A stretch of 41,147 nt of DNA from the IMG/VR virus record IMGVR_UViG_3300046533_000321, positions 1 to 41,147 of that record; one strand, given 5' to 3'. Below the pieces are notes generated by a model, which did no database searches, had not been told where the DNA came from, and worked only from the letters and a program-made list of their open reading frames with translations. The translations under genes and the position numbers were made by a program. Shown one piece after another: positions 2,414-41,147 of the stretch (position 1 is the first letter of the stretch; the number at the start of each line of letters is the position of its first letter). Source of the stretch: a virus.

Positions 2414-2544
2414 GCCTCTCGATCATCGCTCGCTGTGTCGCCTGCAAGCACGAAGCAGACGTGACCGATGCGAAGGATGTGCCGATGTGCCCGAAGTGTT
2501 TCTCGCCGATGGTCGTCGTCAAGGCGGTCAGAGAATGTCGCTAG
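2410..2544 (+). CDS. Zinc-ribbon microprotein, 44 aa
   Basis: Two cysteine pairs, CVACKH and CPKCF, are spaced as in a small zinc ribbon and followed by a hydrophobic strand (MVVVKAV). The ATG overlaps the upstream stop by four bases. Its end overlaps the start of the HNH gene by ten bases. The function is unknown; nucleic-acid or protein binding is likely. Confidence 0.6.
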   Translation: MSLSIIARCVACKHEADVTDAKDVPMCPKCFSPMVVVKAVRECR

Positions 2545-4378: not shown

Positions 4379-7300
4379 GGCGTCCAGACCGGGCCTGCGC
4401 CCGTGTTGCCGCTATCCCAGGTCGGGCCTGCTCCGGTGTTGCCGCTGTCCCAGGTCAGGCCCGTGTCGCTGCTGCTCGACTTCGACTTCTTCTTCTTCGC
4501 AGCGTAGGTCGAGACGCCGACCCCGAAGGTGCCGAGCGCGAGCGCCATCCCGGCAGCGACAGCAGCTGCGGTCGGGTCCTTCGGAGAGCGCCAGGCGTCG
4601 AGCACGTCACGGATCATCATCGGCGAGGCCGAGTTCTTCAACTCGCCGAGAGCGGTGACATCGTCGCCCGTGAAGGTCTGCCCCCGCATCCAGTCGAGGA
4701 TGACGCTGCTCGACGGCGCTGCCTTCGACTGGGCGAAGCGGAAGGCGATGTCGAGCCGCGAGGAGTGACCGAAGCCACCCTGCAGGTTCTGGCTCTTGCC
4801 CGTCGTCGAGGAGGTGGAGCGGCCCAGGACCTCCCGCGAGAGGAAGACGAGCAGGGGGCTGAACCCGGCCAGGATGTCGATCCGGGTGTCGCCGATCCTG
4901 ATCTTGGCGAAGTTGGCGCTCGTCGGATCCCAGCCCACCGAGATCGGGAGGCCCGTCTCCGCCGCGACGGCGCTCACCGTGCCGAGCACGACCCCGACCG
5001 CGAGGACGGTGGAGGCCAGGTTCTTCGTCGCCTCGGCGAACAGGTGAGGGTCGCTCTTGTAGAGCTTCGCGTAGTAGACGGGGCTGATCATGTTGACCCG
5101 CGAGGCCAGGAGCCGCGGCGAGAAGAGGAACGTGTTGAAGAGCGGTGCCGCTCCCTCCATCGGGAGGAGGTGCGTGTCGGGGAGGACGCCGCGTCCGGTC
5201 ATCTGGTTGACCATCCGCCCGAGGCCCTCCACGTAGCTGGCGCTCTCGACGGGCCTGCCTGCAGCCCGGCCTGCCTCCATCGTGAGGTCGAAGATGTCAG
5301 CCCGGAGGCTGTGCAGGAACGTCTCGTAGGCTCGGCCCGACCACTTCACGGGCCAGAACTTCTCCGCGTAGGAGGAGTAGAACTGCTCCTCCCTCATCGC
5401 GAGGTCGCTGTTGCTGGCGCTCGTATCGATAGCCAGATGTCCTCGCCCGTAGTGGACGAAGTTGTCCCGCTTTGCGATGTCCGCCGCGATCTCCTCCGCT
5501 CGCTTCGCCGAGAAGAGCGCCTCGAACATCGGCTTGAACGCCTTCGCGAAGACGATGGGGTGGCGGGTGCCAGCGATGAAGCCCTGGCGCAGTGGAGCCG
5601 AGAGGTCGAAGGAGGCGGCGAGGGAGCGGGGGATGTTCCAGACCTCGACGAAGAGCTTCTCGATCCGGCCCATCGTCTCCTTCGTGAAGCGGACGTTGCC
5701 GTCGAAGATCTTGTTCAGGAGGTCGATCTCGCTGTCGGTCGGCACCTCGCCCTCGGTCGCCTTGATCAGCGCCTTGAAGGCTCGCACCTTCTCGAAGCGG
5801 CGGACCCGGTTCGACATCCTGATCGACCGGGCGATGTGGGCCACGGCCTCGGGGGCAAGCTCGTCGAGGCCCGTGAACGGCTCCTTCGGAAGCTCGCCCT
5901 TCAGGGCACCCATCGCGGCGTGGATCTCATCGACGCTCGCGTCCTCGGGCCAGCGCTCGAACATGTCCGCGATCCGCTGGCCGCGCTCGATGGAGTAGCC
6001 AGCGTTCTGCGCCCTCCGCACCTGGGGTGCACCCTTGAGCAGCCGCACCAGCTGCTGCTCGGGCGTCTCGGGCTGGACGAACATCCGGTCGAAGACCGCC
6101 TTCACCTCCGGGTGGACGTGTCCGCCGATCCGGTCGACGTGGTGGTAGACCTGGCCCATCCAGGCCTTGATCCTGGCGAAGACCGGATCGAGTTCGGACG
6201 CCATCGCCTGGCCCTCGTAGAAGTAGCGCTCCATCGCACGGGCGTAGGCCTCATGGTCGGCCTCGGTCTTGAAGCCTCCGAAGTGGCGGTCGAGGATCTT
6301 CCTGTCGACGCCGCTCAGGTCCTCGACCGAGATGTGGGCAAGCTCATGCAGGATCGTGGACACGTCCGCCGTCTCGAAGAGGTGGACGGCGCGGGTGCCG
6401 TCGGCGAGGAACTCAGCTGCGCCCTTGGGCAGGTCGCCCGGCTGCAGCGCCGTCTGGTAGTAGCTCATCGGCTTCGCCGCCTTGGCCTTCGCAGCCGGGG
6501 TCATCTCGATCACATGCCCGTCCATCGGGTACTTGCCGTGGCGAGGCAGCGCCCCCGGCCCGTCCGCGTAGCGGCCCCCGAAGATCTCCTTCGTGAAGGT
6601 GCTCTTCTCTCCCATCTCCTTCGCAAACATGGCCGGAATGTCACGGTTGTAGAGGCGGAAGAAGGTCGCCGCAGCACCCGAGTCCTGGTGCGCGAGCGCG
6701 TAGGCCTTGATCTCCTCATGCGTCATCCCCGCCACGTCAACGCTCCAGGTCGCCGCCTGGTTGCTCTGCTCCTCGATGGGGAGGGCGTGGTTTGTGAGGT
6801 CGATGGCCCGTCCCCTGGGCGTCTTCGCGAAGGCGGTGTTCCTGACCGCCTGCACGTCGCCGGGGGTGACGATCACCCTCTCGACGTTGGCGTCGTGGGC
6901 GAAGCGGACGGTGCGGCGGACGATGGCCTCCATCTGCTTCTTGCCGAGCGGCGGTGCTCCAGCGACCACGTCGTCCTTCAGCTTCTGGAGATGATCCCTC
7001 TCGGCCTGGAGCTTCGAGATCTCCTCCTCGATCTGCCCCTGGTCGACGAGGCCCTGGTCACCGGAGTGGTACATCGCCTGGTCGAGATCCTGAGCCAGGA
7101 CATCAAGCTCGCGCCGGATCTGCTCGACCCGCTTGTCGATCCCCTCGTTCCCTCCCGCCGCCATGAACTCGCGCCACTGGCTGGCCCAGTCCGACTGGAT
7201 CTCCTCGACGAGCAGGGCCTTCTTGCCCTCGGCGTCGGTGATGATGTGGAAGCGGACGTGGCCGATCACGTCTCCTTCGCCCCAGTGAGCGAGGCCCGTC

Positions 7301-9024: not shown

Positions 9025-9027
9025 GGC

Positions 9028-10521
9028 TTACGCCTTCGGGCCGTAGCCGGGGTTGGCCTGCAGCCAGGCCGGGGGCGCGGGGATGGTCGCCGAGACAAGC
9101 TCGTACGCCGCCTTCTTGATCTGGTGGGCGTTCCAGCCGAGAGGACGGAGGTGGTCGTTCATCGACTCGATCACCCGGTACATGAGGTTGCCGAAGTCGT
9201 GGATCGAGGCTTCGTGCGCCGCTGCCGCCTTCGCCGCCTGGAACTCGGGCTGCAGCGCCCAGTCCTTCTGGCTCGTCCCCTTGGGAGCGTGAGCGCCGGG
9301 CTGCTTGGCGAGCAGCCTCGTCATCTCCTTCGTGAACGCATCCGTCCCCGCCTTGTTGGCGCGAGCGACGGTCGTCGAGACGCTCGACGCCGAGGGCGGC
9401 TTGCCTCCACCGGGCTTGGTCGCGTTCACGGCCCGTGTCGCCGAGGCGTTGGCGCTGATCATGTGGGCGTCCGCGTTCTGCTGCGCGATGGAGTTCCGCG
9501 CTGCCGAGAGGACGGAGTCCTGCTGCGCCTTCCAGCGGTAGACCGCGGCCCGGTCGGCGGCGGTCTGGGCGGAGGCGAGCGAGATCTGGAACTGGTTGTC
9601 GATCTTCTGCTGGGCCTGCTCGATCTGGACCTTCTTGACCGCGAGCGAGGCGTCGAACTGCTGCTGATCCTGAATCGCCTTGATCTGGTCAGACCGCGCC
9701 CCGAGCAGCTGCTCGCGCAGCTTCGTCTCGTAGTCCGAGCGCCCCGCCGTGAGGTCGCTGACGGCCTTCATCAGGTCGGAGTTGATCTTGCCCCGGTCGG
9801 TTCCCTCGGCGGCGATCCCCTCCTGCAGGCCTCGGGCGTTGAGCGACTGCGCGGCCTGGTTCAGCCAGGTGTTGCCGAGAGCGCCCATCCGCACGTCGAA
9901 CTCGCCCGGCACGATCCCGCTGCGGTACTGCTCCGGTGCGGCCTGGGAGAGAGCGTCGAAGCCCGTGCCGCCAGCGCCGACGCGGGAGAGCGCCTGCTCC
10001 TGGGTCGCGAGGTCGGCCTTGAGCGCGTCCGCCACGCCTCCGGTCGCCGTCCCGGCGAGGCCCGTGATCGTGTTCGCAGCATGTTCCCAGGCGTCTTGCA
10101 CACCTGTCCCCATGCCAGCGTTCGCTTGCGCTGCCGCCTGGTAGGCGGACTGGAGCGCCATCCTCCGCCCCTCCGCCTCCTTGCGAAGCTGCTCGGCCTG
10201 ATCGTTCAGGACCTTCTGCTGGCTGGCGAAGCTGGAGTCGGCCATCGACTTCACCCGAGCCTCGATCTGGGCGGGAGACTCGATGGTGGTGAACGAGTCC
10301 TGCGGGGTCGCGGCCTTCTTGACGACGCGGGTCGTCGGCTTCCCACCGGGAGCGGCGAACCAGCCGAGGCCCTCCGCGAAGCTGGCCTGCTGGCCCGGCT
10401 TGATCTTCAGGTGTGAGCGCGGATCGGACGGGTTGAAGGTGAAGTACTTCTGCGGCTGCGCTGCCCTCTTGACGGGAGGGTTGCTGGCGACCTTCTGCTT
10501 CGTCTGAGGCTGGACCGCCAC
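9028..10521 (-). CDS. Probable internal virion/ejection protein, helical, 497 aa
   Basis: This protein is rich in Ala, Gln and Ser, with long predicted helices and a central SLNARGLQEG segment. That ARG(L/I) motif is shared with the next protein upstream (AARGIGSSG) and common in internal or minor structural proteins. It starts at a GTG directly after the upstream TAG. Position between the adaptor/nozzle genes and the giant polyvalent protein fits an ejection protein. No catalytic motif was seen. Confidence 0.6.
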   Translation of the reverse strand: MAVQPQTKQKVASNPPVKRAAQPQKYFTFNPSDPRSHLKIKPGQQASFAEGLGWFAAPGGKPTTRVVKKAATPQDSFTTIESPAQIEARVKSMADSSFASQQKVLNDQAEQLRKEAEGRRMALQSAYQAAAQANAGMGTGVQDAWEHAANTITGLAGTATGGVADALKADLATQEQALSRVGAGGTGFDALSQAAPEQYRSGIVPGEFDVRMGALGNTWLNQAAQSLNARGLQEGIAAEGTDRGKINSDLMKAVSDLTAGRSDYETKLREQLLGARSDQIKAIQDQQQFDASLAVKKVQIEQAQQKIDNQFQISLASAQTAADRAAVYRWKAQQDSVLSAARNSIAQQNADAHMISANASATRAVNATKPGGGKPPSASSVSTTVARANKAGTDAFTKEMTRLLAKQPGAHAPKGTSQKDWALQPEFQAAKAAAAHEASIHDFGNLMYRVIESMNDHLRPLGWNAHQIKKAAYELVSATIPAPPAWLQANPGYGPKA

Positions 10522-20267: not shown

Positions 20268-21446
20268 CTACGCGATGCCCGTGAGCAGGCCGTGCGTCTT
20301 CTCCTGCGCGATGGTCCAGCTGGACTCGGTCATGTACTCCGCTGCGACCCGGTCCATGCCCGGCCCCTGACGGTTGGTCAGGAGCTTCGTGTCGCGGTCC
20401 CTGAGGGGACGCCGCTCGACGTTCGAGAGGTCGACGACGAAGAGGTTGCCGTTGAACCCCGCCGCGCCGGACGGGTAGTTCGACCACTCCTTCTTGACGA
20501 CCACCGGGATCAGGGTGCCGAAGACTCCTGAGAGGAAGCCGTCGACCTGGACGCCGTGAACCTTCTCGTTCGACGGCTTCCAGAACGCGCCCTGGCCCGA
20601 GCGGTTGAAGCGCGAGATGTAGTACGCGCCGATGGTGCCCGTGTAGATGACCTTCTCGGGGCCACCCTTGGCGAGCACCGTGGCGAGGAACTGGTCGAGG
20701 AAGTCGGACGTGAGTTCCCCGGCCACGTTCTGCTTGTTCGTCTGGATGAACTCGTAGAGTCCACCCGCCGACCCGGTGACATCGTCACCCGAGGCCACGA
20801 CGAAGTCGCGAGCGCCGTAGAAGCCGTTGGCCTCCAGCTTCCGCTTGTGCTCGACCAGCTTGCGAGCGGCCTCCTTCGCAGGCTCGCGTCCGCCGTACAA
20901 CTCGATGGCGGTCGCCGTGCCCGAGAACACCCAGGACGTGCGATGGATCTGGGTGTAGTTGAAGCCGAGCACCCGCTGGCTGTACTTCATCTGCGGGATG
21001 TCCGCGCCCTGCTTCTGCGCGTCTCCCACGATCAGCAGCTTGTCGCCCGTCAGTCCGGCGACAGAGGCGGCAGGCATGTTGCCCCACGACGGCACGACCG
21101 TCAGTGAGCCTGCCGCGTTCGCGGTGACGAGGAGCGCCTCGCCTGTCCGCATGTTCCGCACCACGTCCTGGGCCTGGACGGAGACTCCGTCCGTTCCGGA
21201 GACGACGACCGTGGTCGCGCCTGCCGTGTGACCCGCGGTCAAGGTGATGACCGTGTTGACGTACTGCTCCTCCAGCCAGTTGACCTTCTCGCGTGTCGCC
21301 ACGCGGTTGGTCGACCGCTGGGTCATGGTCGTGAACTGGGTCTGATCCGGATCCAGAAGACGCATCTTCGGATCCATGTCCACGACCTTCTCGTCCGCGA
21401 CGAACTCTTCCGTCTGGACGAATGCTCCTACGGCGATGTCCGCCAT
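20268..21446 (-). CDS. Major capsid protein, 392 aa
   Basis: The gene follows the scaffold and is flanked by two strong hairpins. The start MADIAVGAFV has GGGAG five bases upstream, and a longer frame is rejected. The protein carries a beta-rich inserted domain (residues about 65-130, ITLTAGHTAGATTVVVSG). Then comes FNYTQIHRTSWVFSGT and a helix-rich part with FLDQFLATVLAKGGPEKVIY, typical of HK97-fold capsid proteins of short-tailed phages. Identification rests on order, size and these features. Confidence 0.8.
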   Translation of the reverse strand: MADIAVGAFVQTEEFVADEKVVDMDPKMRLLDPDQTQFTTMTQRSTNRVATREKVNWLEEQYVNTVITLTAGHTAGATTVVVSGTDGVSVQAQDVVRNMRTGEALLVTANAAGSLTVVPSWGNMPAASVAGLTGDKLLIVGDAQKQGADIPQMKYSQRVLGFNYTQIHRTSWVFSGTATAIELYGGREPAKEAARKLVEHKRKLEANGFYGARDFVVASGDDVTGSAGGLYEFIQTNKQNVAGELTSDFLDQFLATVLAKGGPEKVIYTGTIGAYYISRFNRSGQGAFWKPSNEKVHGVQVDGFLSGVFGTLIPVVVKKEWSNYPSGAAGFNGNLFVVDLSNVERRPLRDRDTKLLTNRQGPGMDRVAAEYMTESSWTIAQEKTHGLLTGIA

Positions 21447-21554
21447 GAGAACTCCCTGGTCGAGTTTGGTTTCTGACTCGTCTCCGTCGGGAGTACCGCA
21501 AGGCGGTTCCTCAGGGGATCTATGGCCCGACCGTGCCGCCTTGGCGGTGGTCAT

Positions 21555-31415: not shown

Positions 31416-32492
31416 CTACGCGCAGTACACGTACACAACGCCCGAGAGCGCCGCGCCGCTGGACTGGATGATCGTCCAGGCGGTGGTGCCCGTCGGATCG
31501 CCCGTCGAGTCCGAGCGGAAGGAGGCGGTGACCGATCCCTGGATGTTGAAGCCACCAGAGACGGCATGCTTCCCTGCCGGGCAGGAGACGGTGAACTGCT
31601 TGTCTCCCGAGGCGGTTCCGCCGACAACGGTCTGGATCGAGCCGATGTCGCCCGTGTCGCCCTTCGGACCAGCCGGACCCGTGGGGCCAGCCGGGCCTGC
31701 CGGGCCAGCCGGGCCAGCTGCGCCCGTCTCACCCTTCGCTCCCGCCGGGCCAGCCGGGCCAGTGGCTCCAGTGTCGCCCTTCGGCCCAGCGGGTCCTGTC
31801 GCACCAGCGGGGCCAGCCGCGCCAGTGTCACCCTTCGGGCCTGCGGGGCCGATGGGGCCAGCGGGGCCTGTGGCTCCGACTGCTCCAGCAGCGCCCGTGT
31901 CGCCCTTCGCTCCTGCAGGGCCAGTCGCCCCGGTGTCACCCTTCGCGCCAGCAGGGCCAGCTGCTCCGGTGTCGCCCTTGGGACCAGCCGGGCCGACTGC
32001 GCCTGTCGCGCCTGTGTCGCCCTTCGCTCCCGTGGCTCCGGTTGCGCCAGTCTCGCCCTTGGCTCCGGTGTCACCCTTCGGACCCTGAGCGCCGTTCTGG
32101 CCGTTCGCGCCAGCGGCCCCAGTTGCTCCGGTAGCACCCTTCGCACCCTCGACGCCCTGAGCACCCGCAGAGCCGTTGGCCCCCTTGGCTCCTGCCGGGC
32201 CTGCTGGACCCTGAGGACCCCTCGGGCCTGTCACCGCGAGTCCCAGCTTGCGGTTCTCCCACGGCCTGCAGGGTTCGTTCTTGGCGACCGAGCGGACGAC
32301 TCCCGCCCTCAGGATCGCGAGCTTCTCGCTCGGGCTGAACGTGATGTTCGCCCCGGTCAGCGGCAGCAGGCTCTTCTTGCCAATGCAGAAAGGCCCGGCG
32401 AGTCTTCGCCCCTGATCGGTTGTTGCCGCGGTCGTCGATCCGACCATGATGACGGCACAGAGAGCCGCCAGAAACACGTACCACTTCCTCAT
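31416..32492 (-). CDS. Secreted collagen-like protein, 358 aa
   Basis: Residues 1-23 form a signal peptide ([20 protein letters not shown]). A 65-residue N-terminal domain with C36 and C75 follows ([27 protein letters not shown]). Then about 65 uninterrupted Gly-X-Y triplets run from residue 89 to about 284, many of them GPKGDT, GPAGPA and GATGPA. A 73-residue C-terminal beta domain carries two cysteines ([13 protein letters not shown]). Collagen triplets are usual in phage fibres, but a signal peptide is not. This points to an exported host-surface protein, perhaps acquired from an actinobacterium. Confidence 0.85.
31641..32228 (-). repeat. Gly-X-Y coding repeat region
   Basis: Around 65 nine-base triplet codon units encode the collagen-like domain. 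Units such as GGCCCGGC and GACACTGG recur with many variants on the coding strand. Such tracts expand and contract by slippage or recombination, so length may vary between relatives. Confidence 0.85.
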
Positions 32493-33116: not shown

Positions 33117-33548
33117 ATGAGCAAGGGCGGAGTGAGGAAGAGCGCGGTGAGGGAGATCGAGGGGATCCCCGGCACCGTCACGCACGGCTTCAAGGAGCAG
33201 CCGATCATCGAAGTCCAGATGCCCTCGCACGTCTCGCTGGCGATGCGAAGGCAGGGGATCGACCCGCTCGGGATGAAGCTCTACGAGATGGGGCCGTGCT
33301 CGATCTTCGTCGGCAGGGAGCCAGCAGGGAAGAACCACGAACTGCTCTGGCACCTCACCATCAGCACCCCCTCGCGCCACCCGACCTGGGACGAGATCAA
33401 GGTCGCTCGCTACCGCCTCCTCCCACACGACATCTGCTGCGGGGTGCTCTTGCCGCAGCCCGAGTTCTACGTCAACCTGATCGAGCAGGATCACGTCTTC
33501 CAGCTGTGGGAAGTCCGCGACGAGAGGGAAGCATGGACGACGGGCTAG
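33117..33548 (+). CDS. DUF7694-like phage protein, 143 aa
   Basis: GGAGGT eight bases upstream supports this ATG over an earlier one inside the operator. The core LLWHLTISTPSRHPTWDEIK, RYRLLPHDICCG and PEFYVNLIEQDHVFQLWEV matches a widespread phage family of unknown function (WHLS...PTWDE...YVN...LWE). The N-terminus is basic. It is the first rightward gene of this segment. Confidence 0.7.
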   Translation: MSKGGVRKSAVREIEGIPGTVTHGFKEQPIIEVQMPSHVSLAMRRQGIDPLGMKLYEMGPCSIFVGREPAGKNHELLWHLTISTPSRHPTWDEIKVARYRLLPHDICCGVLLPQPEFYVNLIEQDHVFQLWEVRDEREAWTTG

Positions 33549-33637
33549 TGTCCGGTGATGTTCGCGCCGAAGAGGAACATCAGCCAGAGGCTGGCAGCGA
33601 TGAGCGCCAGCATGAGGTCACCGAATGAAAGATTCAC
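33545..33637 (-). CDS. Hidden membrane microprotein, 30 aa
   Basis: The GTG start has AAGGAG five bases upstream. The peptide is mostly a membrane helix (LMLALIAASLWLMFLFGANI). It overlaps the end of the 143-residue gene and the first 13 bases of the next rightward gene. It was missed because of size, but the ribosome site and hydrophobic content support translation. A small toxin, holin-helper or exclusion peptide is possible. Confidence 0.45.
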   Translation of the reverse strand: MNLSFGDLMLALIAASLWLMFLFGANITGH

Positions 33638-33870
33638 AGCCACTCCTTCTGATAGCTCACGGTGAGCCTACCCCGCCCCGCGGACGCCCACCCTTCCTCT
33701 GCCGCCTCGGCCTGCACAAGATCGCGGCCAGGAACGAGCACGTCCTGCGCGACGGGATCTGGTACGACCGGACCCTGAACCGCTGCGAGCGCGAGACATG
33801 CCCTCTCAGCCTCTGGTGGGTCTGCGTCGATGTCGAGAAGGCGTACCACCAGATCTCGTACGAGGAGTAG
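33625..33870 (+). CDS. Small Cys-containing protein, 81 aa
   Basis: CRLGLHKIAARNEH and later CERETCPLSLWW follow the pattern of small phage proteins with a CRLGLHxW motif and a second Cys pair, likely zinc-binding. GAGGT lies five bases before the ATG. The family has no known function. Confidence 0.6.
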   Translation: MKDSQPLLLIAHGEPTPPRGRPPFLCRLGLHKIAARNEHVLRDGIWYDRTLNRCERETCPLSLWWVCVDVEKAYHQISYEE

Positions 33871-34147
33871 CGAACAGCTGTGTGCCCCTGTAGGCCCCCC
33901 GCTGAATCGTGCTGCTGGTGCCCCCTGAATCGCTGCTGCGCTGCGTCGTGCGGTAGGAAGCCCCGCGAGAGAGGACCCGAGCACACGCGAGCTTTCGGGG
34001 GACCGCCCCCCGCCGCCCTAGCTCCTAGCTAGGGCGGCTGCGCCCGTGTGCCAGAACAAGCCTTTGGCTTGTGCTGGGCGAGGCATGCTGCCCTTGTCCC
34101 TTGTCACTGCTTGCAGTGAGTGGTGCTCGGGAGGGTGCTGCCTAGAG
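33871..34147. other. Non-coding gap with strong hairpins
   Basis: No gene is supported here. It holds two imperfect copies of a CCCCCTGAATCG-CTGCTG block near 33900 and 33930. A 12-bp hairpin at 34012-34038 (arm GCCGCCCTAGCT, loop CCT) follows, then 7-bp hairpins at 34056-34072 and 34104-34119. The first could end transcription from both sides. It marks the left edge of the hairpin-rich zone. Confidence 0.6.
34012..34038. terminator. Strong 12-bp hairpin, possible bidirectional terminator
   Basis: Arms GCCGCCCTAGCT and AGCTAGGGCGGC around CCT. It lies between a rightward operon end (33870) and the end of a leftward gene (34148), the right place for a shared terminator. It lacks a T-run, so activity is inferred. 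Confidence 0.55.
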
Positions 34148-34858
34148 TCAGCCCGTAGGGCTGAAGATGGCACGAAGCTGCTTGAACGTCGCCTCATGGG
34201 CACCTTCGGTGGTCAGCGTCAGCGAAGCCTCCTCCGTCGCGAGCGGGTCGACAGCGTCGACCAGCGCCAGAACGGCGCGAGTGGCCTGCAAGCCTTCGGC
34301 TTCGAGAGCATTTCCCACCGCCACCACGGCAAGCTCTTCTGCCCGTAGGGCAACCACAGCCTTCAGAGCGGCTCGGGGGGATAGACGAGGTTTCACCTCG
34401 GGATCAGCGATCAGGGCAAGGGTGTCGTCGGAGAGCGCTGTGTGAGCGTGGAAGACGCAGACCTCCATCCCGCGCATCTTCCCGACCTTGCACCTCACTC
34501 CGTGAACCGTCAAAGCCTTGCACCGCTTCTCCTCGGGGATCACAAGGCTTACAGCCTTGAGTCGGTGAACGTTCCCCTCGTCGTCTTCGAGCACCTCAGG
34601 CTGCTTTGCAGCCTGTCTCCTGGCTCTGGCGGCGTTCCCGTTTCGGCGGTCCACCTCTCGCACCGGATCGGCGCGTTCTTCCCGCTGATCCTGCGCCAAG
34701 AGGGCTGGTTCACTGGTCAACCACTCCGAAGGAGTGACCTCGTCGGTGACGGTCGCAAGGGGTTCAGCTTCGCTGGGAGAATCGGCAGCTGTTTCGGTGC
34801 GCGTCAGGGCTTCGCCCTGTGCGTCATCCAGGTACTCGCGGGTCGCGGCGTCCATCAT
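34148..34858 (-). CDS. Zinc-motif protein, isolated leftward gene, 236 aa
   Basis: The N-terminal 110 residues are acidic and low in structure. A single C-x9-C-x10-C-x2-H motif (C113, C123, C134, H137 in RCKALTVHGVRC and MEVCVFHA) resembles a small zinc fold found in phage and mobile-element proteins. The C-terminal 90 residues are helical and Ala/Leu/Val-rich. It is the only leftward gene inside the hairpin zone and carries at least nine hairpins. A weak ribosome site precedes two adjacent ATGs. Function unknown. Confidence 0.65.
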   Translation of the reverse strand: MMDAATREYLDDAQGEALTRTETAADSPSEAEPLATVTDEVTPSEWLTSEPALLAQDQREERADPVREVDRRNGNAARARRQAAKQPEVLEDDEGNVHRLKAVSLVIPEEKRCKALTVHGVRCKVGKMRGMEVCVFHAHTALSDDTLALIADPEVKPRLSPRAALKAVVALRAEELAVVAVGNALEAEGLQATRAVLALVDAVDPLATEEASLTLTTEGAHEATFKQLRAIFSPTG

Positions 34859-35138
34859 CCGATCCTACATGCGATCACGTCCCTTCGCTACCCGCAAACC
34901 CGCATGTACTGGTCGTTTCACGACCTTCGTGCGCGTGTTCGGATCTTCGATCCGGCCTGTTTGGGCTTTGTTCGGATGTCTTGACAGTCCGGATCTGGTC
35001 CAGCTAGGTTGCGAATCGGCACCCAGCTCCCTCGCCGTTCTTTCGGTGGCAGTCGGGGGGTGCTAGTCGGCACGTTGACCGAGGTGCATCGGCAGTCGGT
35101 GCACCGCAGTGAACGTCACCAACACACGGAGGTTCAGC
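34859..35138. other. Intergenic regulatory region with promoter and leader
   Basis: This gap separates the leftward zinc-motif gene from the rightward operon. It contains 6-bp TTC-loop hairpins at 34911-34925 and 34940-34954, promoter P1, and a leader with GCACCC...GGGTGC and GGTGCA...TGCACC inverted repeats before the start-associated element. No gene is supported. Confidence 0.6.
34981..35010 (+). promoter_or_regulatory. Rightward promoter P1 (TTGACA, 18 bp, TAGGTT)
   Basis: A -35 TTGACA and a -10 TAGGTT with 18-base spacing lie 129 bases before the first gene of the operon. About 40 bases around it are nearly repeated at 38850 (shared GTTCGGA upstream and CTGGTCCAGCTA before the -10). A TANNNT -10 suits an actinobacterial housekeeping sigma. 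The transcript would have a ~120-base leader with possible hairpins. Confidence 0.7.
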
Positions 35139-35375
35139 GTGGAGAGCTTTGCTCCCTCACGGAACGAACGCAGTCAGCAGGTTCGAGGCAAGGAACGGCC
35201 CTACTCTCGTAGAGAGTCGGAATGGGAGAACACCGGGGCATTCACGGGGACTGGTCGACCGAAGGTCGTCGGCGTCTCGGAGCAGGTCGCTCTCGTCACT
35301 CGGCGGAACGCTGCAGCAGCCCGAAGGGCTGAGAGGCAGTGGCTCCGGACACTCCCGAAGGGAACGAGGATCTAA
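35139..35375 (+). CDS. Small basic protein, first gene after promoter P1, 78 aa
   Basis: The GTG start is placed by the element CACACGGAGGTTC just upstream, shared with other starts in this region. The protein is basic and largely helical at the C-terminus (ALVTRRNAAAARRAERQWLR), suggesting nucleic-acid binding. No family was recognised. Hairpins at 35213 and 35317 lie in its coding region. The stop shares one base with the next ATG. Confidence 0.65.
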   Translation: MESFAPSRNERSQQVRGKERPYSRRESEWENTGAFTGTGRPKVVGVSEQVALVTRRNAAAARRAERQWLRTLPKGTRI

Positions 35376-35614
35376 TGCACGGCCTGATCCTGAGAGCGTG
35401 GCGTGACGGATCCGTCCACGCCGAGGTGCCGATTGCCGCTTTCCACACCGAAGGTGTGCTCGGCGTCCACCTCGACCATCGCGAAGACGGGCACCGCTTC
35501 AAGACCGCTTGCGGTCTTGGTTGGTTCGGCATCGGCTCCTCGTCGGGCTACGGACACCCTGAAAGGGTGTCTTGCGAGGCTTGCCGGGCAATCCTGCTCG
35601 GCGAATCACAGTAG
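35375..35614 (+). CDS. Small Cys/His protein, 79 aa
   Basis: A beta-rich N-terminus (HGLILRAWRDGSVHAEVP) leads to HRFKTACGLGWFG and HPERVSCEACRAILLG. The CG...CEAC arrangement resembles small actinophage zinc proteins (xxCG...VxCxxC). Four hairpins (8-9 bp stems at 35500, 35553 and 35602) fall within it, the last spanning the stop codon. Function unknown. Confidence 0.65.
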   Translation: MHGLILRAWRDGSVHAEVPIAAFHTEGVLGVHLDHREDGHRFKTACGLGWFGIGSSSGYGHPERVSCEACRAILLGESQ

Positions 35615-35684
35615 TGATTCGGTCTGGCTCGTCACGGAGCCTGGCCGAATCCCTTCGGTGAAGGGATTGACACGGAGGTACGTC
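35615..35684 (+). repeat. Intercistronic start-associated module, copy 1
   Basis: Contains a first stem (GGCTC/GAGCC), a CTGGCCG segment, a second 9-bp stem AATCCCTTC with GGT loop, and GACACGGAGGTACGTC leading into the ATG. The same order recurs before several downstream genes. Confidence 0.7.
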
Positions 35685-36170
35685 ATGGCAGGTTGGAGCG
35701 ATGCTCTGCAGGATGAAGAGCGGGAGATGTGGGACGACGTAGTCGCCGCCGAGAAGGTGACAAGCGACGAAGTCGCTTCGGAGTACGCTCGGGTCGAAGC
35801 CGAGTACACCGACTACGTCGGTGGCGGCACGGTGACCAGCACCTACGGTGCTGTCGAGGTCAACACGATCACGGAAGAGCAGAAGCTCTTCCAGCAGTCG
35901 GCGAACGAGGTCGTAGACCTCGCCGACAAGCGGCTCGCGAGGATCACAAGGCTTCGCCTTGTCACCGACCGAGACTTCCCCATGTGGGACCTGAGCTACT
36001 GCTACGGGGTCCTGAAGGACGGCGCGGCAGTCAGGGTTCGGTTTCCTCAGAGCCAGTTCACGAAGTCAGATCTCAACCGAGATCTGATCGACATGTGCAA
36101 GGCCGAGGGAGTGTTCGGCAAGGGTCTTGGGATCTTCGATCCCGAGGTGATCAGCAAGCTGTACGGATAG
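35685..36170 (+). CDS. Protein of unknown function, 161 aa
   Basis: Acidic and helical in the first 60 residues (DALQDEEREMWDDVVAAEKV). A mixed alpha/beta section follows (RLRLVTDRDFPMWDLSYCYG, AAVRVRFPQSQFTKSDL). The ATG follows GACACGGAGGTACGTC. At least seven hairpins of 6-9 bp lie in its coding sequence. No family was recognised, and it is conserved only in context as the partner of the next gene. Confidence 0.7.
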   Translation: MAGWSDALQDEEREMWDDVVAAEKVTSDEVASEYARVEAEYTDYVGGGTVTSTYGAVEVNTITEEQKLFQQSANEVVDLADKRLARITRLRLVTDRDFPMWDLSYCYGVLKDGAAVRVRFPQSQFTKSDLNRDLIDMCKAEGVFGKGLGIFDPEVISKLYG

Positions 36171-36236
36171 GGTCGATGGAGCCTCTCTGAGGCTCTGTCC
36201 ATCCGTTCCGTCGGAACGGTGTACACGGAGGTAAGC
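36171..36236 (+). repeat. Intercistronic start-associated module, copy 2
   Basis: First stem GAGCCTC/GAGGCTC with TCT loop, a TGTCCAT linker, a second stem CCGTTCC/GGAACGG with GTC loop, then TACACGGAGGTAAGC before the ATG. Compared with copies 4 and 5, the second stem has an A-T pair replaced by G-C on both sides, a compensatory change. Confidence 0.7.
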
Positions 36237-37007
36237 ATGGACGCGATTCGCTTTCAGCGAATGGCCGAGGTGGCTGGCATCGAGTACGACCTCGAAGAGG
36301 TCTTCGGTGGCGAGATCCGTGGTCTACTGACCACGAACCAGAAGGTCGAGAAAGGCGAGAAGGAGGGATGGCTTACAGCCATCATGCACCTCGCTCCCGC
36401 CAAAGCCTCTGGCTTTCAGGTCTGCTCCTCGGCGACCAAGGGCTGCGAAGCAGCCTGCCTCAACACGGCAGGCCGCGGCGGCATCTTCAAGGTCGGCGAA
36501 GCCGACAACAGCATCCAGCAGGCTCGCCGAAGGCGAACCGCCTGGTACTTCGCTCGAAGGAACGAGTTCCTTCGTCGGCTTGACATCGAGATCGGCACCC
36601 ATGTGGGCCGAGCCATGCGGAAGGGCTTCAGCCCTGCCGTGCGGCTCAACGGGACCAGCGATCTTCGCTGGGAGTCGATCAAGCTGGACGGAGCAACGCT
36701 CTTCGAGCGTTGGCCGAACGTGGTCTTCTACGACTACACGAAGCACCTGCGGGATGTCTCTGACATCCCGAACTACTCGCTGACCTTCTCCCTGGCGGAG
36801 AGCAACGAGAGTCGTGCAGAGCTTGCTCTGCAGATGGGCCTCAACGTCGCTGTGGTCTTCCACAGCGTCCCCGAGGAGTTCTGGGGCTACCCCGTCTTCG
36901 ACGGGGACAAGAGCGACCTGCGCTTCCTTGACCCCAAGGGGGTCATCGTCGGCCTCAAGGCGAAGGGCAAGGCCCGGCAGGATCGTACGAGCGGCTTCGT
37001 TCGCTGA
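36237..37007 (+). CDS. GP88-family phage protein, 256 aa
   Basis: Matches the phage gene-product-88 family: HLAPAKASGF, then the Cys cluster C63/C70/C74 in QVCSSATKGCEAACLNTAGR, RRTAWYFARRNEFLRRL, AVRLNGTSDLRWE (near 135-146), VVFYDYTKH, NYSLTFSLAE, NVAVVFHSV, DGDKSDLRFLDPKGVIVGLK and SGFV at the end. The family is common in actinobacteriophages and its biochemical role is unknown. The Cys cluster suggests metal or Fe-S binding. Some 15 hairpins lie in 771 bases, many with the loop exactly on one codon (TTC, GAA, TCT, AAG). Confidence 0.85.
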   Translation: MDAIRFQRMAEVAGIEYDLEEVFGGEIRGLLTTNQKVEKGEKEGWLTAIMHLAPAKASGFQVCSSATKGCEAACLNTAGRGGIFKVGEADNSIQQARRRRTAWYFARRNEFLRRLDIEIGTHVGRAMRKGFSPAVRLNGTSDLRWESIKLDGATLFERWPNVVFYDYTKHLRDVSDIPNYSLTFSLAESNESRAELALQMGLNVAVVFHSVPEEFWGYPVFDGDKSDLRFLDPKGVIVGLKAKGKARQDRTSGFVR

Positions 37008-37075
37008 CATCACGGTGGGGACCTCTGGTCCCTGCCGCCTTGTCACCGACAGGGAGAACACGGAGGTCATCGAAG
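37008..37075 (+). repeat. Intercistronic start-associated module, copy 3 (divergent)
   Basis: First stem GGGACC/GGTCCC with TCT loop, then CTGCCG, a weak second stem (TGTC/GACA), and AACACGGAGGTC nine bases before the ATG. Confidence 0.6.
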
Positions 37076-37504
37076 ATGACGAACTACATGCGCCTCGACA
37101 CCGAAGAGCGGTGTCACTGCGGTGCTCACAAGCAGGGCAGTGACCACTGCCCGATCTGCGGCTGCGAGGAGTTCGAGCAGCGGTGTGACCACATCCACAT
37201 AGTGGATCCGACCTACTTGGTCATCCACGGCAACCACACCTCGACGAAGACGGCGGTCGACTACGTCGCTCACATCGTCTACGGCAACCCTCGGATCGAG
37301 GCGGTTACCGTAGGTAGCAAGTTCGTGGCGCTGGTCGAGTTCCCTGGTTCCCAGGGCACCCAGGCTCAGTACACGTTCGAGCGGATGGGGAGCTTCCCGC
37401 ACGGAGCCTGCATGGCGATGGACAAGGCTATCGCCTTGAGGGAGTTCGGCAGCTGGATCTACCACTACGCACCCGGCACCGTCGTTGGAAACGACGCGGT
37501 CTAG
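37076..37504 (+). CDS. Zinc-ribbon protein of unknown function, 142 aa
   Basis: The N-terminus has CHCGAHKQGSDHCPICGC, two Cys pairs that should bind zinc. The remainder is a beta-rich domain (EAVTVGSKFVALVEFPGSQG, AQYTFERMGSF) with a helix (ACMAMDKAIALREFG). GGAGG lies nine bases before the ATG. No family was recognised. Confidence 0.7.
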   Translation: MTNYMRLDTEERCHCGAHKQGSDHCPICGCEEFEQRCDHIHIVDPTYLVIHGNHTSTKTAVDYVAHIVYGNPRIEAVTVGSKFVALVEFPGSQGTQAQYTFERMGSFPHGACMAMDKAIALREFGSWIYHYAPGTVVGNDAV

Positions 37505-37576
37505 CGGACAGGGTCGGTGAGGCTCCACGGAGCCTTGCCGTTCCATTCCGGTGGAATGGATGACACGGAGGTACGC
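37505..37576 (+). repeat. Intercistronic start-associated module, copy 4
   Basis: CGGACAGGGTCGGTG, first stem AGGCTCC/GGAGCCT with a two-base loop, TTGCCGT, second stem TCCATTCC/GGAATGGA with GGT loop, then GACACGGAGGTACGC and the ATG. Almost identical to copy 5 except that the arms of the first stem are exchanged. Confidence 0.75.
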
Positions 37577-37843
37577 ATGACCGAGTACATCACCAATGCC
37601 GACTACCGTCGGCAGAAGAGCGGCCTGACCAGGGCGATCAACTCTGGCGATCCGCTGAAGGTTCTCGACAACGTCGAGAAGACGCTCAAGGAGTGGAGCG
37701 GCAAGGCGTGGCCCGATGCCTGGGCACGTTGGCGGAACGCCGTCGAGGATGCACGGTGGACTTACGTCCACAGCGAGGAGTGGGGTCTGCCGATGCCCGA
37801 GACTCTGTCTCGGTTCGACAACCTGCTTCGGGACCTCGGATGA
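37577..37843 (+). CDS. Small helical protein, 88 aa
   Basis: Charged and helical throughout (NADYRRQKSGLTRAINSGDP, NVEKTLKEWSGKAWPDAWAR). It is a compact single-domain protein with many Trp residues. The ATG follows GACACGGAGGTACGC. The stop overlaps the next start (ATGA). No family was recognised. Confidence 0.65.
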   Translation: MTEYITNADYRRQKSGLTRAINSGDPLKVLDNVEKTLKEWSGKAWPDAWARWRNAVEDARWTYVHSEEWGLPMPETLSRFDNLLRDLG

Positions 37844-37959
37844 AGTTCATCCGTTGGTACTTCGAGGTCAACGCTGAACGTCCCCTTACGGGGACGTGGA
37901 TCTCGAAGACGATCCTGCTGGCCGTCATCGTCTGGGCGATCTTTCAGATCGCCACCTGA
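37840..37959 (+). CDS. Membrane microprotein, 39 aa
   Basis: Starts in an ATGA overlap with the preceding gene. A basic/aromatic N-terminus (MKFIRWYFEV) is followed by one membrane helix at the C-terminus (SKTILLAVIVWAIFQIA). It is translationally coupled and likely inserted in the host membrane. Function unknown. Confidence 0.6.
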   Translation: MKFIRWYFEVNAERPLTGTWISKTILLAVIVWAIFQIAT

Positions 37960-38031
37960 TCGGACAGGGTCGGTGGAGCCTTCGAGGCTCTGCCGTTCCA
38001 TTCCGGTGGAATGGAAGACACGGAGGTGAGC
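37960..38031 (+). repeat. Intercistronic start-associated module, copy 5
   Basis: CGGACAGGGTCGGTG, first stem GAGCCT/AGGCTC with TCG loop, TGCCG, second stem TTCCATTCC/GGAATGGAA with GGT loop, then GACACGGAGGTGAGC and the ATG. Confidence 0.75.
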
Positions 38032-38415
38032 ATGAGCAACTTCGCCAAAGGCGAGAGGGTCTTCATCATGGACGCTCGCGGTGGGCACCACGGCACCGTC
38101 CAGGGCGTCCTGCGAAGCGGACTGATCTCAGTCCGCTGGGACTCTGGGATGTTCGAGCGGTGCGAGGCCGAGGAGCTTCAGTTCTCCACCACGGTCGAAG
38201 ACCGTGAGGCAGAGCAGTTGACTCCGACGGGCCACGTCATCGGGGCGACCTACTGGTCGTCCTACTGGGGCGGCACCTACAAGGTCGTCGGCACCGTAGG
38301 TGACTTCGGCGTCGTCGTGGAGTGTGTCCTCCCTGGGGGAGGAGCGCACCAAACGGTCGGAGAGCAGTGGTCACACGCCACGACGCTCGACCGCAAGGAT
38401 GTCCGGATCGGCTGA
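38032..38415 (+). CDS. Beta-rich protein, possible tandem SH3/KOW-like, 127 aa
   Basis: Two similar beta units are visible: FAKGERVFIMDARGGHHGTV with GLISVRWDSG, and YWSSYWGGTYKVVGTVGDFG with VVVECVLPGG. This suggests a pair of small barrel domains of SH3 or KOW type, which often bind RNA or proteins. A 10-bp hairpin (AGCGGACTGA arm) lies at 38116-38137. The domain idea is tentative. Confidence 0.6.
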   Translation: MSNFAKGERVFIMDARGGHHGTVQGVLRSGLISVRWDSGMFERCEAEELQFSTTVEDREAEQLTPTGHVIGATYWSSYWGGTYKVVGTVGDFGVVVECVLPGGGAHQTVGEQWSHATTLDRKDVRIG

Positions 38416-38473
38416 CGTAACGGTGGGGCCTTCAGGCCCTGCCGTCGCATCACCCAACCACGGAGGAGGAACG
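38416..38473 (+). repeat. Intercistronic start-associated module, copy 6 (shortened)
   Basis: First stem GGGCCT/AGGCCC with a two-base loop, then CTGCCG and a degenerate second part, ending CCACGGAGGAGGAACG before the ATG. Confidence 0.6.
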
Positions 38474-38794
38474 ATGAACGACGGCACCGTCGAAGACGGT
38501 CGCATCGTGGACTGCCGCATCTGCGGCGTCACGACGCACATGATCGACCCCGAGGAGATGAACGAGGTCTGCGATGCTTGCAGCATCGGGGGTTGGGGAC
38601 ACGTCAAGAAGGCGTACCTCCTTCGGAGAGGCGACGTGATCTTCAGGGGAGGTCGGCAGTCGGTGATCCTCCAAGAGGAGGATTGGGGCAAGCGGCGGAT
38701 GCTGCAGGTCCGCGACGACGACGGGAAGGTGGGCGACCTGCTCCTGCGCTCGACCGACCTCGTCCACGTACACATGGACAGGCAGGAGCCGTAG
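38474..38794 (+). CDS. Zinc-ribbon protein, 106 aa
   Basis: CRICGVTTHMIDPEEMNEVCDACS forms a CxxC...CxxC zinc ribbon at residues about 15-36. A basic beta segment (AYLLRRGDVIFRGGRQSVIL) and an acidic end follow. Hairpins at 38486, 38572 and 38666. Family unknown, likely nucleic-acid binding. Confidence 0.65.
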   Translation: MNDGTVEDGRIVDCRICGVTTHMIDPEEMNEVCDACSIGGWGHVKKAYLLRRGDVIFRGGRQSVILQEEDWGKRRMLQVRDDDGKVGDLLLRSTDLVHVHMDRQEP

Positions 38795-38849
38795 GCCACA
38801 TGCGCCTTCGGAGCTTTGCTCCGGGCTGTTCGGAGAATGTTCGGACTGC

Positions 38850-38879
38850 TTGACAGATCGAATCTGGTCCAGCTACGTT
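38850..38879 (+). promoter_or_regulatory. Rightward promoter P2 (TTGACA, 18 bp, TACGTT)
   Basis: TTGACA and TACGTT are 18 bases apart, with the same flanks as P1 (GTTCGGA upstream and CTGGTCCAGCTA within the spacer and -10). The predicted start is near 38886. It drives the 183-residue gene and those after it. Confidence 0.7.
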
Positions 38880-38939
38880 GGTGTCCGGCACCGAGATCCC
38901 ACCCTGTGTTTCAGGGGCTGCGGTCGGTGTCGGACACCA
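38879..38939 (+). promoter_or_regulatory. Structured 5' leader / operator downstream of P2
   Basis: Sixteen-base arms (TGGTGTCCGGCACCGA and TCGGTGTCGGACACCA) pair fully with one G-T wobble. A CCCTG/CAGGG stem lies at the top. The left arm touches the -10, so the dyad could be a repressor site in DNA or an mRNA-end hairpin. No ligand pattern of a known riboswitch was recognised. Confidence 0.65.
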
Positions 38940-39024
38940 CGGGAAGCGGTGTGCTGCGGAGGGTGCCCCATCTGGGACGCCGCCCGGAGCAATGTCGCTC
39001 CCACAACACGGAGGTATCACCAGC

Positions 39025-39576
39025 ATGAAGGCCAACGTCACGGTCGAGTTCTCGCTCGGCACGACCATCGAGCCTGAGGTCAACGACTACCACTGGGACA
39101 GTGGCTCGGTCACGGACTTCAAGGGCGAGTCGTACTTCTCCGCCGAGAGCTTCACCGTCCAGGGAGGCTCGCTCACGTTCACGGTCGAAGACGACTCGTT
39201 CACGGACGAGGACGACGTGAAGGAGTGGGTCCGCTCCGAGGTCATCAACGATGACAACGAGGTCGAGGACTCGAACGGGATCACCTGGGTGGTCGAGGAA
39301 CTCGACATCGAGGTCGAGATCGAGGAGGCTCCGCTTCCGACCCTCGAAGAGGCGATCCAGACGCTCGGCACGTTCGCCGAGGAGCGTCGGAACGACGAGG
39401 AGTGGGGCGAGATCGCTCGCGCCGCCATCGTCGTCCTCGACACCCTCGGGACCGTCGAGGCCCGTGTCTCCAGCCTGGAGGCGCGGCTCGAAGAGCAGTC
39501 GCAGCGGATCGAGGGCCTCGTCGCTCTCGCCGCGGCTCCTGCCAACCCGGACCCCGAAGGGGATCACCCCTTCTAG
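39025..39576 (+). CDS. Acidic protein with C-terminal coiled coil, 183 aa
   Basis: Residues 1-105 are a very acidic beta-rich domain (VTDFKGESYFSAESFTVQGG, DDSFTDEDDVKEWVRSEVI). Residues about 125-170 are a coiled coil (LGTVEARVSSLEARLEEQSQ). It is probably oligomeric. CAACACGGAGGTATC lies upstream of the ATG. No family was recognised. Hairpins are few here, unlike its neighbours. Confidence 0.65.
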   Translation: MKANVTVEFSLGTTIEPEVNDYHWDSGSVTDFKGESYFSAESFTVQGGSLTFTVEDDSFTDEDDVKEWVRSEVINDDNEVEDSNGITWVVEELDIEVEIEEAPLPTLEEAIQTLGTFAEERRNDEEWGEIARAAIVVLDTLGTVEARVSSLEARLEEQSQRIEGLVALAAAPANPDPEGDHPF

Positions 39577-39662
39577 CCGTCTGACAGCGGGTGGGGGAGC
39601 TTGCTCCCCTCGCCCGGTGCAGATGTCACGCACCGCATCGAACATCACGGAGGTGATGACGC
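39577..39662 (+). repeat. Intercistronic start-associated module, copy 7
   Basis: First stem GGGGAGC/GCTCCCC with TT loop, a CGCCC linker, second stem CGGTGC/GCACCG with a nine-base loop, then ATCACGGAGGTGATGACGC leading to the ATG. Confidence 0.6.
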
Positions 39663-40091
39663 ATGGCGCTCACATGGAACGTGAAGGGAATCGCGAACAG
39701 CGACGAGGTCTGCTGGTTCACGGCGGAGGTCGATGAGCCGAACCACTTCATCGAGAAGGGGAAGCAGTACCTGTCGCCGCTCACGAACGCCTTCATCTGG
39801 CACAGCCTCTCGACGGGGATCGGAACGATCACCGAGGCGAACGCTGGAGAGGTGTACGCACGGATCTCGCTGCTCGAACAGGTCTACGGAGCTTCGCTCC
39901 TGTCGAGTGACGGCCCGGTGCCGATCACGATGGACGATGTGACTCGTCACATCGGGCTGGTCACGAACGCCTCGTTCAAGGACGAGTCCCGCGCCAGCTT
40001 CCTGAAGCGGCACATCACGTACAAGCTCGACGACTCGGTCCGCAACTACAAGCGGCACGTCGAGCGGCAGGCCGCAGAAGCCACAGCCTAG
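39663..40091 (+). CDS. Protein of unknown function, 142 aa
   Basis: Alpha/beta protein beginning MALTWNVKGIANSDEVCWF, with NAFIWHSLSTGIGTITEANA and DDVTRHIGLVTNASFKDESR in the middle and a basic C-terminus (SVRNYKRHVERQAAEA). It follows TCACGGAGGTGATG. A 9-bp hairpin (CGATGTGAC arm) lies at 39935-39954. No family was recognised. Confidence 0.65.
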   Translation: MALTWNVKGIANSDEVCWFTAEVDEPNHFIEKGKQYLSPLTNAFIWHSLSTGIGTITEANAGEVYARISLLEQVYGASLLSSDGPVPITMDDVTRHIGLVTNASFKDESRASFLKRHITYKLDDSVRNYKRHVERQAAEATA

Positions 40092-40109
40092 CGTCCGGCA
40101 GTGGGTGTA

Positions 40110-40136
40110 GACCAGCGTAGCTCTGCTATACTGGTC
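40110..40136. promoter_or_regulatory. Dyad overlapping a TATACT -10 (candidate operator/promoter)
   Basis: GACCAG and CTGGTC flank an inner TAGC/GCTA pair, making a 27-base dyad. A consensus-like TATACT at 40127-40132 lies in its right arm. No good -35 is present, so the promoter may be activator-dependent or weak. Repression by the downstream HTH protein is plausible. Confidence 0.5.
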
Positions 40137-40185
40137 CATGCCCCGTGCGGATGGTCGGCACGGAAACGACGACGAGAGGGGAGGA

Positions 40186-40407
40186 ATGCCAACACGCCCA
40201 CTCAGCACGACCCGCTTTGCGGAGGAGGTCCAGGGGAGGCTCATCGACACGCATGAGACGCTCGCCCTGGTCGGCTTGCGGAGCAAGCAGTCGCTCCACA
40301 ACCGCATCGCAGCAGGGAAGCTCCCGAAGCCAGTGATCACGCTGGAGCGGAGCTACGCATTCTGGGACCGCGTAGCGGTCCTCAAGGCAGCATCGACACG
40401 GAGGTAA
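40186..40407 (+). CDS. AlpA/excisionase-type helix-turn-helix protein, 73 aa
   Basis: DTHETLALVGLRSKQSLHNR, then IAAGKLPKPVITLERSYAFW and RVAVLKA is the MerR/AlpA-type motif that docks a short HTH followed by a wing. The chosen ATG has GGGGAGG just upstream. An ATG 16 codons earlier (five bases after the -10) would need leaderless translation and is less likely. A local regulator, perhaps of its own promoter. Confidence 0.75.
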   Translation: MPTRPLSTTRFAEEVQGRLIDTHETLALVGLRSKQSLHNRIAAGKLPKPVITLERSYAFWDRVAVLKAASTRR

Positions 40408-40414
40408 GACCAGC

Positions 40415-41147
40415 ATGACTCGCACAGTCGAGAACCTCGACGCGCTGATGTCGAGGATCGTGGCGGAAGACCGCCGCAAGTACGACGTGATCGCAGACAC
40501 CCGCTCGATGAACGTGGGCGTCCGGATCAACGAGGAGGGCAAGGGCGGCACCGTCGAGCTTGACCTCGACACGCCGGGCCAGGAGCTTCGCTCCTTCCGG
40601 CTGACCGACCACATGCAGGGCCAGATCTCGACCGATCTGGGCATCCCGAAGAAGTACTTCGACCGGATGCGTCAGGACGCCCCGTCTCTGTTCGAGACGA
40701 ACGTCCGCCACTGGATGATGAACGAGCCGAAGGCTCGCATGATCCGTGGACTCACGAACGGCTCCGAGATGATGACGGGCCGGGCCTGGATGTCCGACAA
40801 GTTCCGCCGCCTCGACAACATCGAGGTCGCTCGGATGCTCCTGCCCGAGTTCGACAAGCTCGGCACCGAGGTGCAGTTCCACCAGGCCGCGGTCACGGAG
40901 CAGAAGCTCCACATCCGCGCCCTGTTCCCCGCCCTGGAGCGGGACATCAAGGCGGTCGGTGACACCGTCCGCTGGGGCATCGCCATCGAGAACAGCGAGA
41001 TCGGCGCTGGCTCGTTGAAGCTGTCCGGCTTCGTGATGGTGCTGATCTGCACGAACGGCATGGTCACGTCGAAGGTGCTGAACGTGCGCCACGTCGGCAA
41101 GCGTGAGGGCGAAGGCGTCCTCTCGAACGAGGCCCTCCGGGCCGACG
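40415..41147 (+). CDS. DUF932-family phage/plasmid-like protein (partial, runs off the window)
   Basis: The ATG follows GACACGGAGGTAAGACC. The translated part (244 residues) matches the DUF932 phage/plasmid-like family: an N-terminal FRLTDHMQGQISTDLGIPKK-type segment, GRAWMSDKFRRLDNIEVARM in the middle, and SEIGAGSLKLSGFVMVLICT, NGMVTSKVLNVRHVGKREGE towards the edge. The family is widespread on phages and plasmids, and its activity is unknown. It continues beyond the window. Confidence 0.8.
   Translation, partial: MTRTVENLDALMSRIVAEDRRKYDVIADTRSMNVGVRINEEGKGGTVELDLDTPGQELRSFRLTDHMQGQISTDLGIPKKYFDRMRQDAPSLFETNVRHWMMNEPKARMIRGLTNGSEMMTGRAWMSDKFRRLDNIEVARMLLPEFDKLGTEVQFHQAAVTEQKLHIRALFPALERDIKAVGDTVRWGIAIENSEIGAGSLKLSGFVMVLICTNGMVTSKVLNVRHVGKREGEGVLSNEALRAD

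Follow-up and report, generated by a model that had tools for sequence, protein, structure and literature searches.

Genome-scale ordered RNA structure is known from RNA viruses, and pervasive structure from single-stranded DNA viruses. The locus described here resembles both in that folding appears to be selected through coding sequence, with constraint on silent sites. However, it lies in a tailed double-stranded DNA phage and takes the form of one block of discrete, perfect triloop hairpins, the pairing and loops of which look DNA-type. The hairpins most similar to them are those of promoters P1-P3 of Escherichia phage N4, which have perfect short stems and a G-N-A triloop closed by C-G (PMC4496689, partial text). 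According to the available portion of the same article, extrusion of the N4 hairpins at a sigma of -0.035 with Mg, and also in cells, needs C:G closure of a 3-base loop that starts with G and ends with A. In cluster K mycobacteriophages, the SAS/ESAS elements are short repeats with inverted repeats near gene starts, akin to the gene-leader repeat of our locus. As far as the excerpted source goes (PMC12699233), these are conserved sequences near starts, whereas the hairpins studied here are mostly intragenic and diverse in sequence. The region from 25 to 60 kb of the K1 phage Anaya contained 0-4 hairpins per kb. In yeast, template switching homogenises the arms of inverted repeats and inverts their spacers (PMC8604942, in part), a likeness to the perfect arms, and to the few exact loop inversions, seen here. 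The yeast events described in that part are scattered, whereas the present block is dense and conserved.

The window is a stretch of 41,147 nucleotides of viral DNA (IMG/VR record IMGVR_UViG_3300046533_000321). Unless another setting is given, a hairpin was defined as a perfect Watson-Crick stem of at least 6 pairs with a loop of 3-4 bases. Such hairpins were concentrated at 34001-41147, where 81 were counted (11.3 per kb) compared to 46 (1.35 per kb) at 1-34000. The density rises abruptly near 34.0 kb, peaks at 35.4-38.0 kb and thins rightward, a tiny perfect hairpin occurring roughly every 60 to 90 bases over about 7,000 bases. Gaps between hairpins are about 37 bases, and the spacing is slightly more even than random (CV 0.67-0.82 vs 0.97). 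The block spans a leftward gene, the divergent gap and rightward genes, extending to either side of the divergent pair; its density is 13.4 per kb in noncoding and 10.6 per kb in coding DNA. The 11 block genes together contain 55 hairpins, as against 7.6 in codon shuffles (the gene at 37076-37504 being read from 37079 in this count). Hairpins of the form cGNAg with a stem of at least 6 numbered 25 in the 7.1-kb block and 0 in the other 34 kb. The features of the region are as follows.

34001-41147: hairpin-dense block with 81 perfect hairpins; the window ends inside it
34148-34858, - strand: leftward gene, 236 aa, Cys/His-rich, no family; 7 hairpins, the block here crossing into the opposite operon
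34933-35038, + strand: promoter-like element, copy 1; hairpin 34940-34954, TTGACA 34981-34986, 18 bases, TAGGTT 35005-35010
35643-35687, + strand: gene-leader repeat; hairpin AATCCCTTC-GGT-GAAGGGATT, then ACACGGAGGT, then ATG
35685-36170, + strand: rightward early gene, 161 aa; 8 hairpins; among viral contigs, found only in the same 4 genomes
36237-37007, + strand: GP88-family gene (PF17338, E 2e-40); 15 hairpins
37076-37504, 37577-37843, 38032-38415 and 38474-38794, + strand: further rightward genes, hairpin density falling
38802-38907, + strand: promoter-like element, copy 2; hairpin 38809-38823, TTGACA 38850-38855, 18 bases, TACGTT 38874-38879
39025-39576, 39663-40091, 40138-40407 and 40415 onwards (to 41146), + strand: further rightward genes, hairpin density still falling

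The promoter-like element occurs in eight copies across the four genomes carrying the block (see below), and each window copy has its hairpin upstream of TTGACA. Among homologous copies the loop of this hairpin is TTC, TTT, AAA or GAA. A simple sigma-70 scan called no site, though the aligned element has TTGACA and TAnnnT, and no intrinsic terminators were called. Because TTGACA-18-TAGGTT/TACGTT elements are present, the block genes are probably transcribed by the host polymerase. The leader repeat precedes four genes, each time as a hairpin with its own arms followed by ACACGGAGGT and ATG; in the sister copies at 36196-36240, 37536-37580 and 37991-38035 the arms differ yet still pair. The protein of the leftward gene (34148-34858) shows the pattern C-x6-GxRC-...-C-x2-H and yielded no PHROGs family and no Pfam match above cut-off (searched at E 1).

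The GP88-family gene matches its profile PF17338 with 139 bits (gathering cut-off 24.4). For this gene of 771 bases, the first-pass annotation had reported some 15 perfect hairpins, many of them with a loop of exactly one codon, and had proposed combined selection on protein and nucleic-acid structure, in which synonymous choice does much of the work. The count was borne out: 15 perfect hairpins are present, besides 1 further with a 7-nt loop, and 2000 synonymous codon shuffles gave a mean of 0.98 and a maximum of 5, thus never reaching 15. When codon-junction context was preserved as well, 2000 shuffles gave a mean of 2.0 and a maximum of 8. One-codon loops are real in that 8 of the 11 GP88 triloops consist of exactly one codon, including those named in the annotation. 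Their register carries no signal of its own, the registers 0:1:2 being 26:4:11 over the 11 block genes and 570:150:231 among chance hairpins of codon-shuffled genes. Since the genetic code alone yields such a register, coding by codon register was rejected. The proposed combined constraint, with much of it exerted through synonymous choice, agrees with the shuffles and also with the silent sites: same-residue third positions differ between relatives in 65/471 cases in arms and 13/94 in loops, compared to 640/2390 outside (p 4e-10, arms vs outside). The hairpins are not peculiar to GP88, as their assignment to this gene had implied. They run through the entire 7-kb region, intergenic gaps included, whereas GP88 homologues at about 50% identity carry few, with counts of 0-3 in all 80 genes and a mean of 0.64 (shuffled 0.42), and a GP88-specific feature was accordingly rejected. 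Neither of the controls that the annotation had named for refuting its proposal, homologues and codon-shuffled versions, carries as many hairpins as the window gene.

A protein scan of IMG/VR yielded three relatives, phages with a GP88 82-85% identical to that of the window, and all three carry the same block in the same place. Each of their GP88 genes has 15 hairpins, a number equal to the window's that holds in four genomes (counts across these related genomes and reciprocal comparisons are not independent). Most hairpins lie at the same codons as in the window, their arms often changed in step; the remainder are lost, with replacements nearby. The 15 hairpins of the window gene and their counterparts (L002, L003 and L004 denote loci of the relatives) are listed below.

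36246-36262: ATTCGCT-TTC-AGCGAAT; arms co-vary (L002 ATCCGCT/AGCGGAT, L004 ACCGCT/AGCGGT)
36288-36302: GACCTC-GAA-GAGGTC; invariant in 4 genomes
36318-36335: CGTGGTC-TACT-GACCACG; in L004 identical arms, loop TGTT
36367-36383: GATGGCT-TAC-AGCCATC; present in 4/4 genomes
36402-36416: AAAGCC-TCT-GGCTTT; present in 4/4 genomes
36441-36455: GGCTGC-GAA-GCAGCC; present in 4/4 genomes
36492-36506: GTCGGC-GAA-GCCGAC; retained in L002, with a substitute 7 bases upstream in L003 and L004
36555-36574: CGAAGGAA-CGAG-TTCCTTCG; arms co-vary in L003 and L004
36655-36671: CCAGCGA-TCT-TCGCTGG; present also in L002 (loop CAT) and L004
36694-36712: CAACGCTC-TTC-GAGCGTTG; GACGCTC/GAGCGTC in relatives
36750-36770: CGGGATGTC-TCT-GACATCCCG; invariant in 4 genomes
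36815-36832: TGCAGAG-CTTG-CTCTGCA; absent from relatives, theirs lying about 9 codons upstream
36848-36867: CGCTGTGG-TCTT-CCACAGCG; counterpart shifted in relatives
36890-36906: CCCCGTC-TTC-GACGGGG; present in L002 and L003
36929-36945: TGACCCC-AAG-GGGGTCA; loop TCT in the 3 relatives

Per genome the array amounts to about 80-110 perfect stems of 6-9 pairs; their loops, for the most part C(GNA)G on one strand or the other, have 3 or, less often, 4 bases. It is densest around GP88, just right of the divergent gene junction, and thins over roughly 15 kb. In the genome G001 (48,168 bases), counts per 2 kb from 22 kb onwards were 14, 40, 23, 14, 11, 6, 9, 6, 4 and 0, with about 2 expected. The sequences of G001 and G002 seem to be circular permutations of one another, while their IMG/VR class is linear; cumulative GC skew of these two genomes showed no clear switch at the block. 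The block belongs to a module of early genes that this survey found in no more than four genomes.

None of the unrelated phages examined shows the pattern. Among the 80 GP88 loci the maximum was 11 hairpins per 3 kb. The loci of the GP88-bearing Achebe, RAS14, TRX32-1 and Sansa, the KellEzio locus (reached through another gene) and 5 bacterial genome loci were all near background. In 61 other phage loci (754 kb), with loci of the same four genomes set apart as 'own' beforehand, the count never rose above 10 hairpins per 3 kb, with a total of 5 cGNAg hairpins, as against 47-59 per 3 kb in the loci holding most of the block. For this sample, a general property of phages or of high-GC DNA was rejected; altogether, the hairpin density of the block was unmatched in 141 unrelated phage loci. 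Phages that are kin by the identity of their capsid (72-73%) and terminase (about 65%) proteins lack both the block and these early genes. GP88 was not found in 8 records in a search run without a positive control. The sister phages G004, G005 and G008, which have no block, carry in their early region a repeated operator-like dyad, AACTTGG-N4-CCAAGTT, located where the block would be (L190:4802-5802, L200:13504-14485 and L188:100-446). A search of the open-access literature found no description of such a hairpin array.

Loop length, loop sequence, strand and pair changes agree in that the nucleic acid under constraint in GP88 and the block looks like DNA rather than mRNA. Only loops of 3 and 4 bases are enriched (60 and 21 in the block vs 19 and 27 in 33.5 kb elsewhere). 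Across the four genomes, 175 of 290 triloops are GNA or TNC, compared to 15% expected, and the closing pair is C-G in 207 of 290. Complementary loops are about equally frequent (GAA 46 vs TTC 59; GTA 21 vs TAC 21), and in the window alone GNA was found 20 times on the + and 17 times on the - strand. Outside the GNA/TNC class, to which 23 of the 60 window triloops do not belong, some loops are skewed between strands in the four genomes (TCT 26 vs AGA 4; GGT 11 vs ACC 1). The tetraloop gCTTGc, which is stable in RNA as well, occurred 11 times (0.5 expected), while RNA-type tetraloops were not enriched (cTTCGg 1 vs 1.1 expected; GNRA 5 vs 5.3). Of 229 internal stem pairs altered on both sides among the relatives, 168 were still Watson-Crick pairs. 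Internal pairs with a change on one side alone became A-C in 82 and G-T in 69 cases (binomial p 0.33). Constraint on mRNA should favour G-U; it is not favoured over A-C, which points to the DNA level. Thus, Watson-Crick covariation, loop class and strand equality make the constraint look DNA-level and strand-symmetric, rather than one on mRNA structure.

The same scan (stem of at least 5) applied to N4 1-10000 returned 3 cGNAg hairpins; these precede gp1, gp2 and gp15 and fit the positions of the three known N4 promoters. The cGNAg hairpins of the block have the N4-type mini-hairpin loop, and its other loops do not. However, N4 has three sites with conserved flanks, whereas the block hairpins, present in their tens per genome, have no shared flank: 175 oriented hairpins gave no consensus beyond the loop and lacked the conserved bases at -17 to +1 that surround the hairpin in N4 promoters. 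Moreover, the block hairpins lie mostly inside genes and turn over between relatives, and neither a virion RNA polymerase nor a protein that binds hairpins was detected.

We favour, with a probability of about 0.47, the reading that the block is early-region DNA packed with mini-hairpins that supercoiling can extrude, and that density rather than fixed sites is selected; the grounds for it are sequence comparisons. Negative supercoiling would extrude the hairpins as tiny cruciforms, as for the N4 promoter hairpins of the same loop class. The early region of a circular or topologically closed phage DNA (circularity being assumed) would then become studded with folded DNA. Selection would act on hairpin density; single hairpins turn over while the number per gene stays constant. 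The wider proposition is more tentative: that synonymous codon choice weaves about 100 sequence-unrelated, co-extruding mini-hairpins into a torsion-absorbing early region, bulk DNA shape being selected with no fixed recognition site. The weakest step concerns use. The likeliest role of the array would be that of a structural platform that responds to supercoiling, or of a sink for torsion, in the early/origin region, since extrusion of one whole block would absorb 132-181 helical turns, compared to a linking deficit of about 275 (48.2 kb, assumed sigma -0.06); taken by itself, we consider this role doubtful.

The main rival to a DNA mini-hairpin array is mutational. Frequent polymerase template switching in quasi-palindromes would leave perfect hairpins without function. 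Known to make the arms of inverted repeats alike and to flip their spacers (PMC8604942, partial text), the mechanism would be expected to give Watson-Crick perfection, symmetry between strands and inverted loops, and it could mimic part of the arm conservation. The interchange of TTC, TTT, AAA and GAA in the promoter-element loops is in line with it, as are 4 exact inversions among the loops of 263 orthologous hairpins with both arms paired, but these inversions are a small share of the loop changes, 70 loops being changed otherwise and 189 unchanged. The arms are also conserved at silent sites and relative to noncoding flanks (noncoding differences 0.125 in arms vs 0.177 outside), although part of this could come from coding constraint on the partner arm. 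As template switching alone leaves unexplained the equal hairpin number per gene despite turnover, the loop spectrum and the restriction to one block, we judge it unlikely to account for the array. Structure in mRNA, by which hairpins would protect or regulate early transcripts (stability, avoidance of Rho or RNase, translation), would suit the coincidence of the block with early-looking transcription units in both directions and the position of the leader hairpins, a short way upstream of ribosome sites. On the sense strand, GP88 RNA indeed folds locally more strongly than its codon shuffles (z -6.8 to -7.8), but the antisense strand folds about equally strongly. Nor is the folding-energy test clean, because the capsid (MCP) control gene (20268-21554, - strand) also folds beyond its shuffles, on both strands (z about -4.5), with no excess of short hairpins (3 observed, 1.4 expected). 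Together with the missing preference for G-U over A-C, loops that are symmetric between strands, the dominance of triloops, the lack of enrichment of cUUCGg and GNRA tetraloops, and 0 Rfam matches at gathering score in 33500-41147, this makes an explanation at the mRNA level quite improbable.

Binding or start sites, either for a structure-specific phage protein (cf. the N4 virion RNA polymerase) or for single-strand priming near an origin, would account for the N4-like loop class and for the position of the block at a divergent gene junction. However, the oriented hairpins share nothing beyond the loop, host-type promoter elements are present, and the sites far outnumber the three of N4 and come and go singly. 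No RNA polymerase families were found among the proteins scanned; PF00940 gave no match in 4 records, a weak result as the control was silent too. We hold recognition sites of this kind to be a slim prospect. Escape from guide-directed defence, in which a guide derived from the block, whichever the strand, would fold back on itself and work poorly, explains the strand symmetry and the lack of G-U, as both strands supply guides, and it would fit a region that enters early. Against this, the gaps between hairpins leave room for hairpin-free guides, and the loop classes fit DNA better than RNA; we regard it as highly improbable. If the constraint on the array is one on DNA, a double-stranded DNA genome of cellular type would be using its synonymous sites to write DNA structure, and silent-site conservation need not mean RNA structure. 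The block would be a ready natural construct for asking whether small cruciforms form numerously in cells and how they affect supercoiling, transcription and replication, and it also suits the question of whether DNA rather than RNA folding can drive codon choice.

The GP88 protein of the window (36237-37007, protein P0001) had no match in a PDB sequence search. Structure models were poor with a 4-sequence input and good with a 45-sequence input (pLDDT 83.8). Foldseek returned nothing for the model at E <=0.001; in VIA-align, radical SAM enzymes (SuiB, NifB, PFL activase, viperin) came out on top, with Z 5-6, below trust level. A radical-SAM-like barrel is accordingly a lead from modelling, not a result. 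Cys 63, 70 and 74 are invariant across 45 homologues.

Two further proteins lie elsewhere in the window. The 1549-aa protein encoded at 4375-9024 (- strand) carries a metalloprotease-like HELAH motif and matched nothing in Pfam at E 0.001. By eye it looks like a large polyvalent protein, probably one of the virion. At 31416-32492 (- strand), a collagen-like Gly-X-Y protein of 358 aa was recognised by eye.
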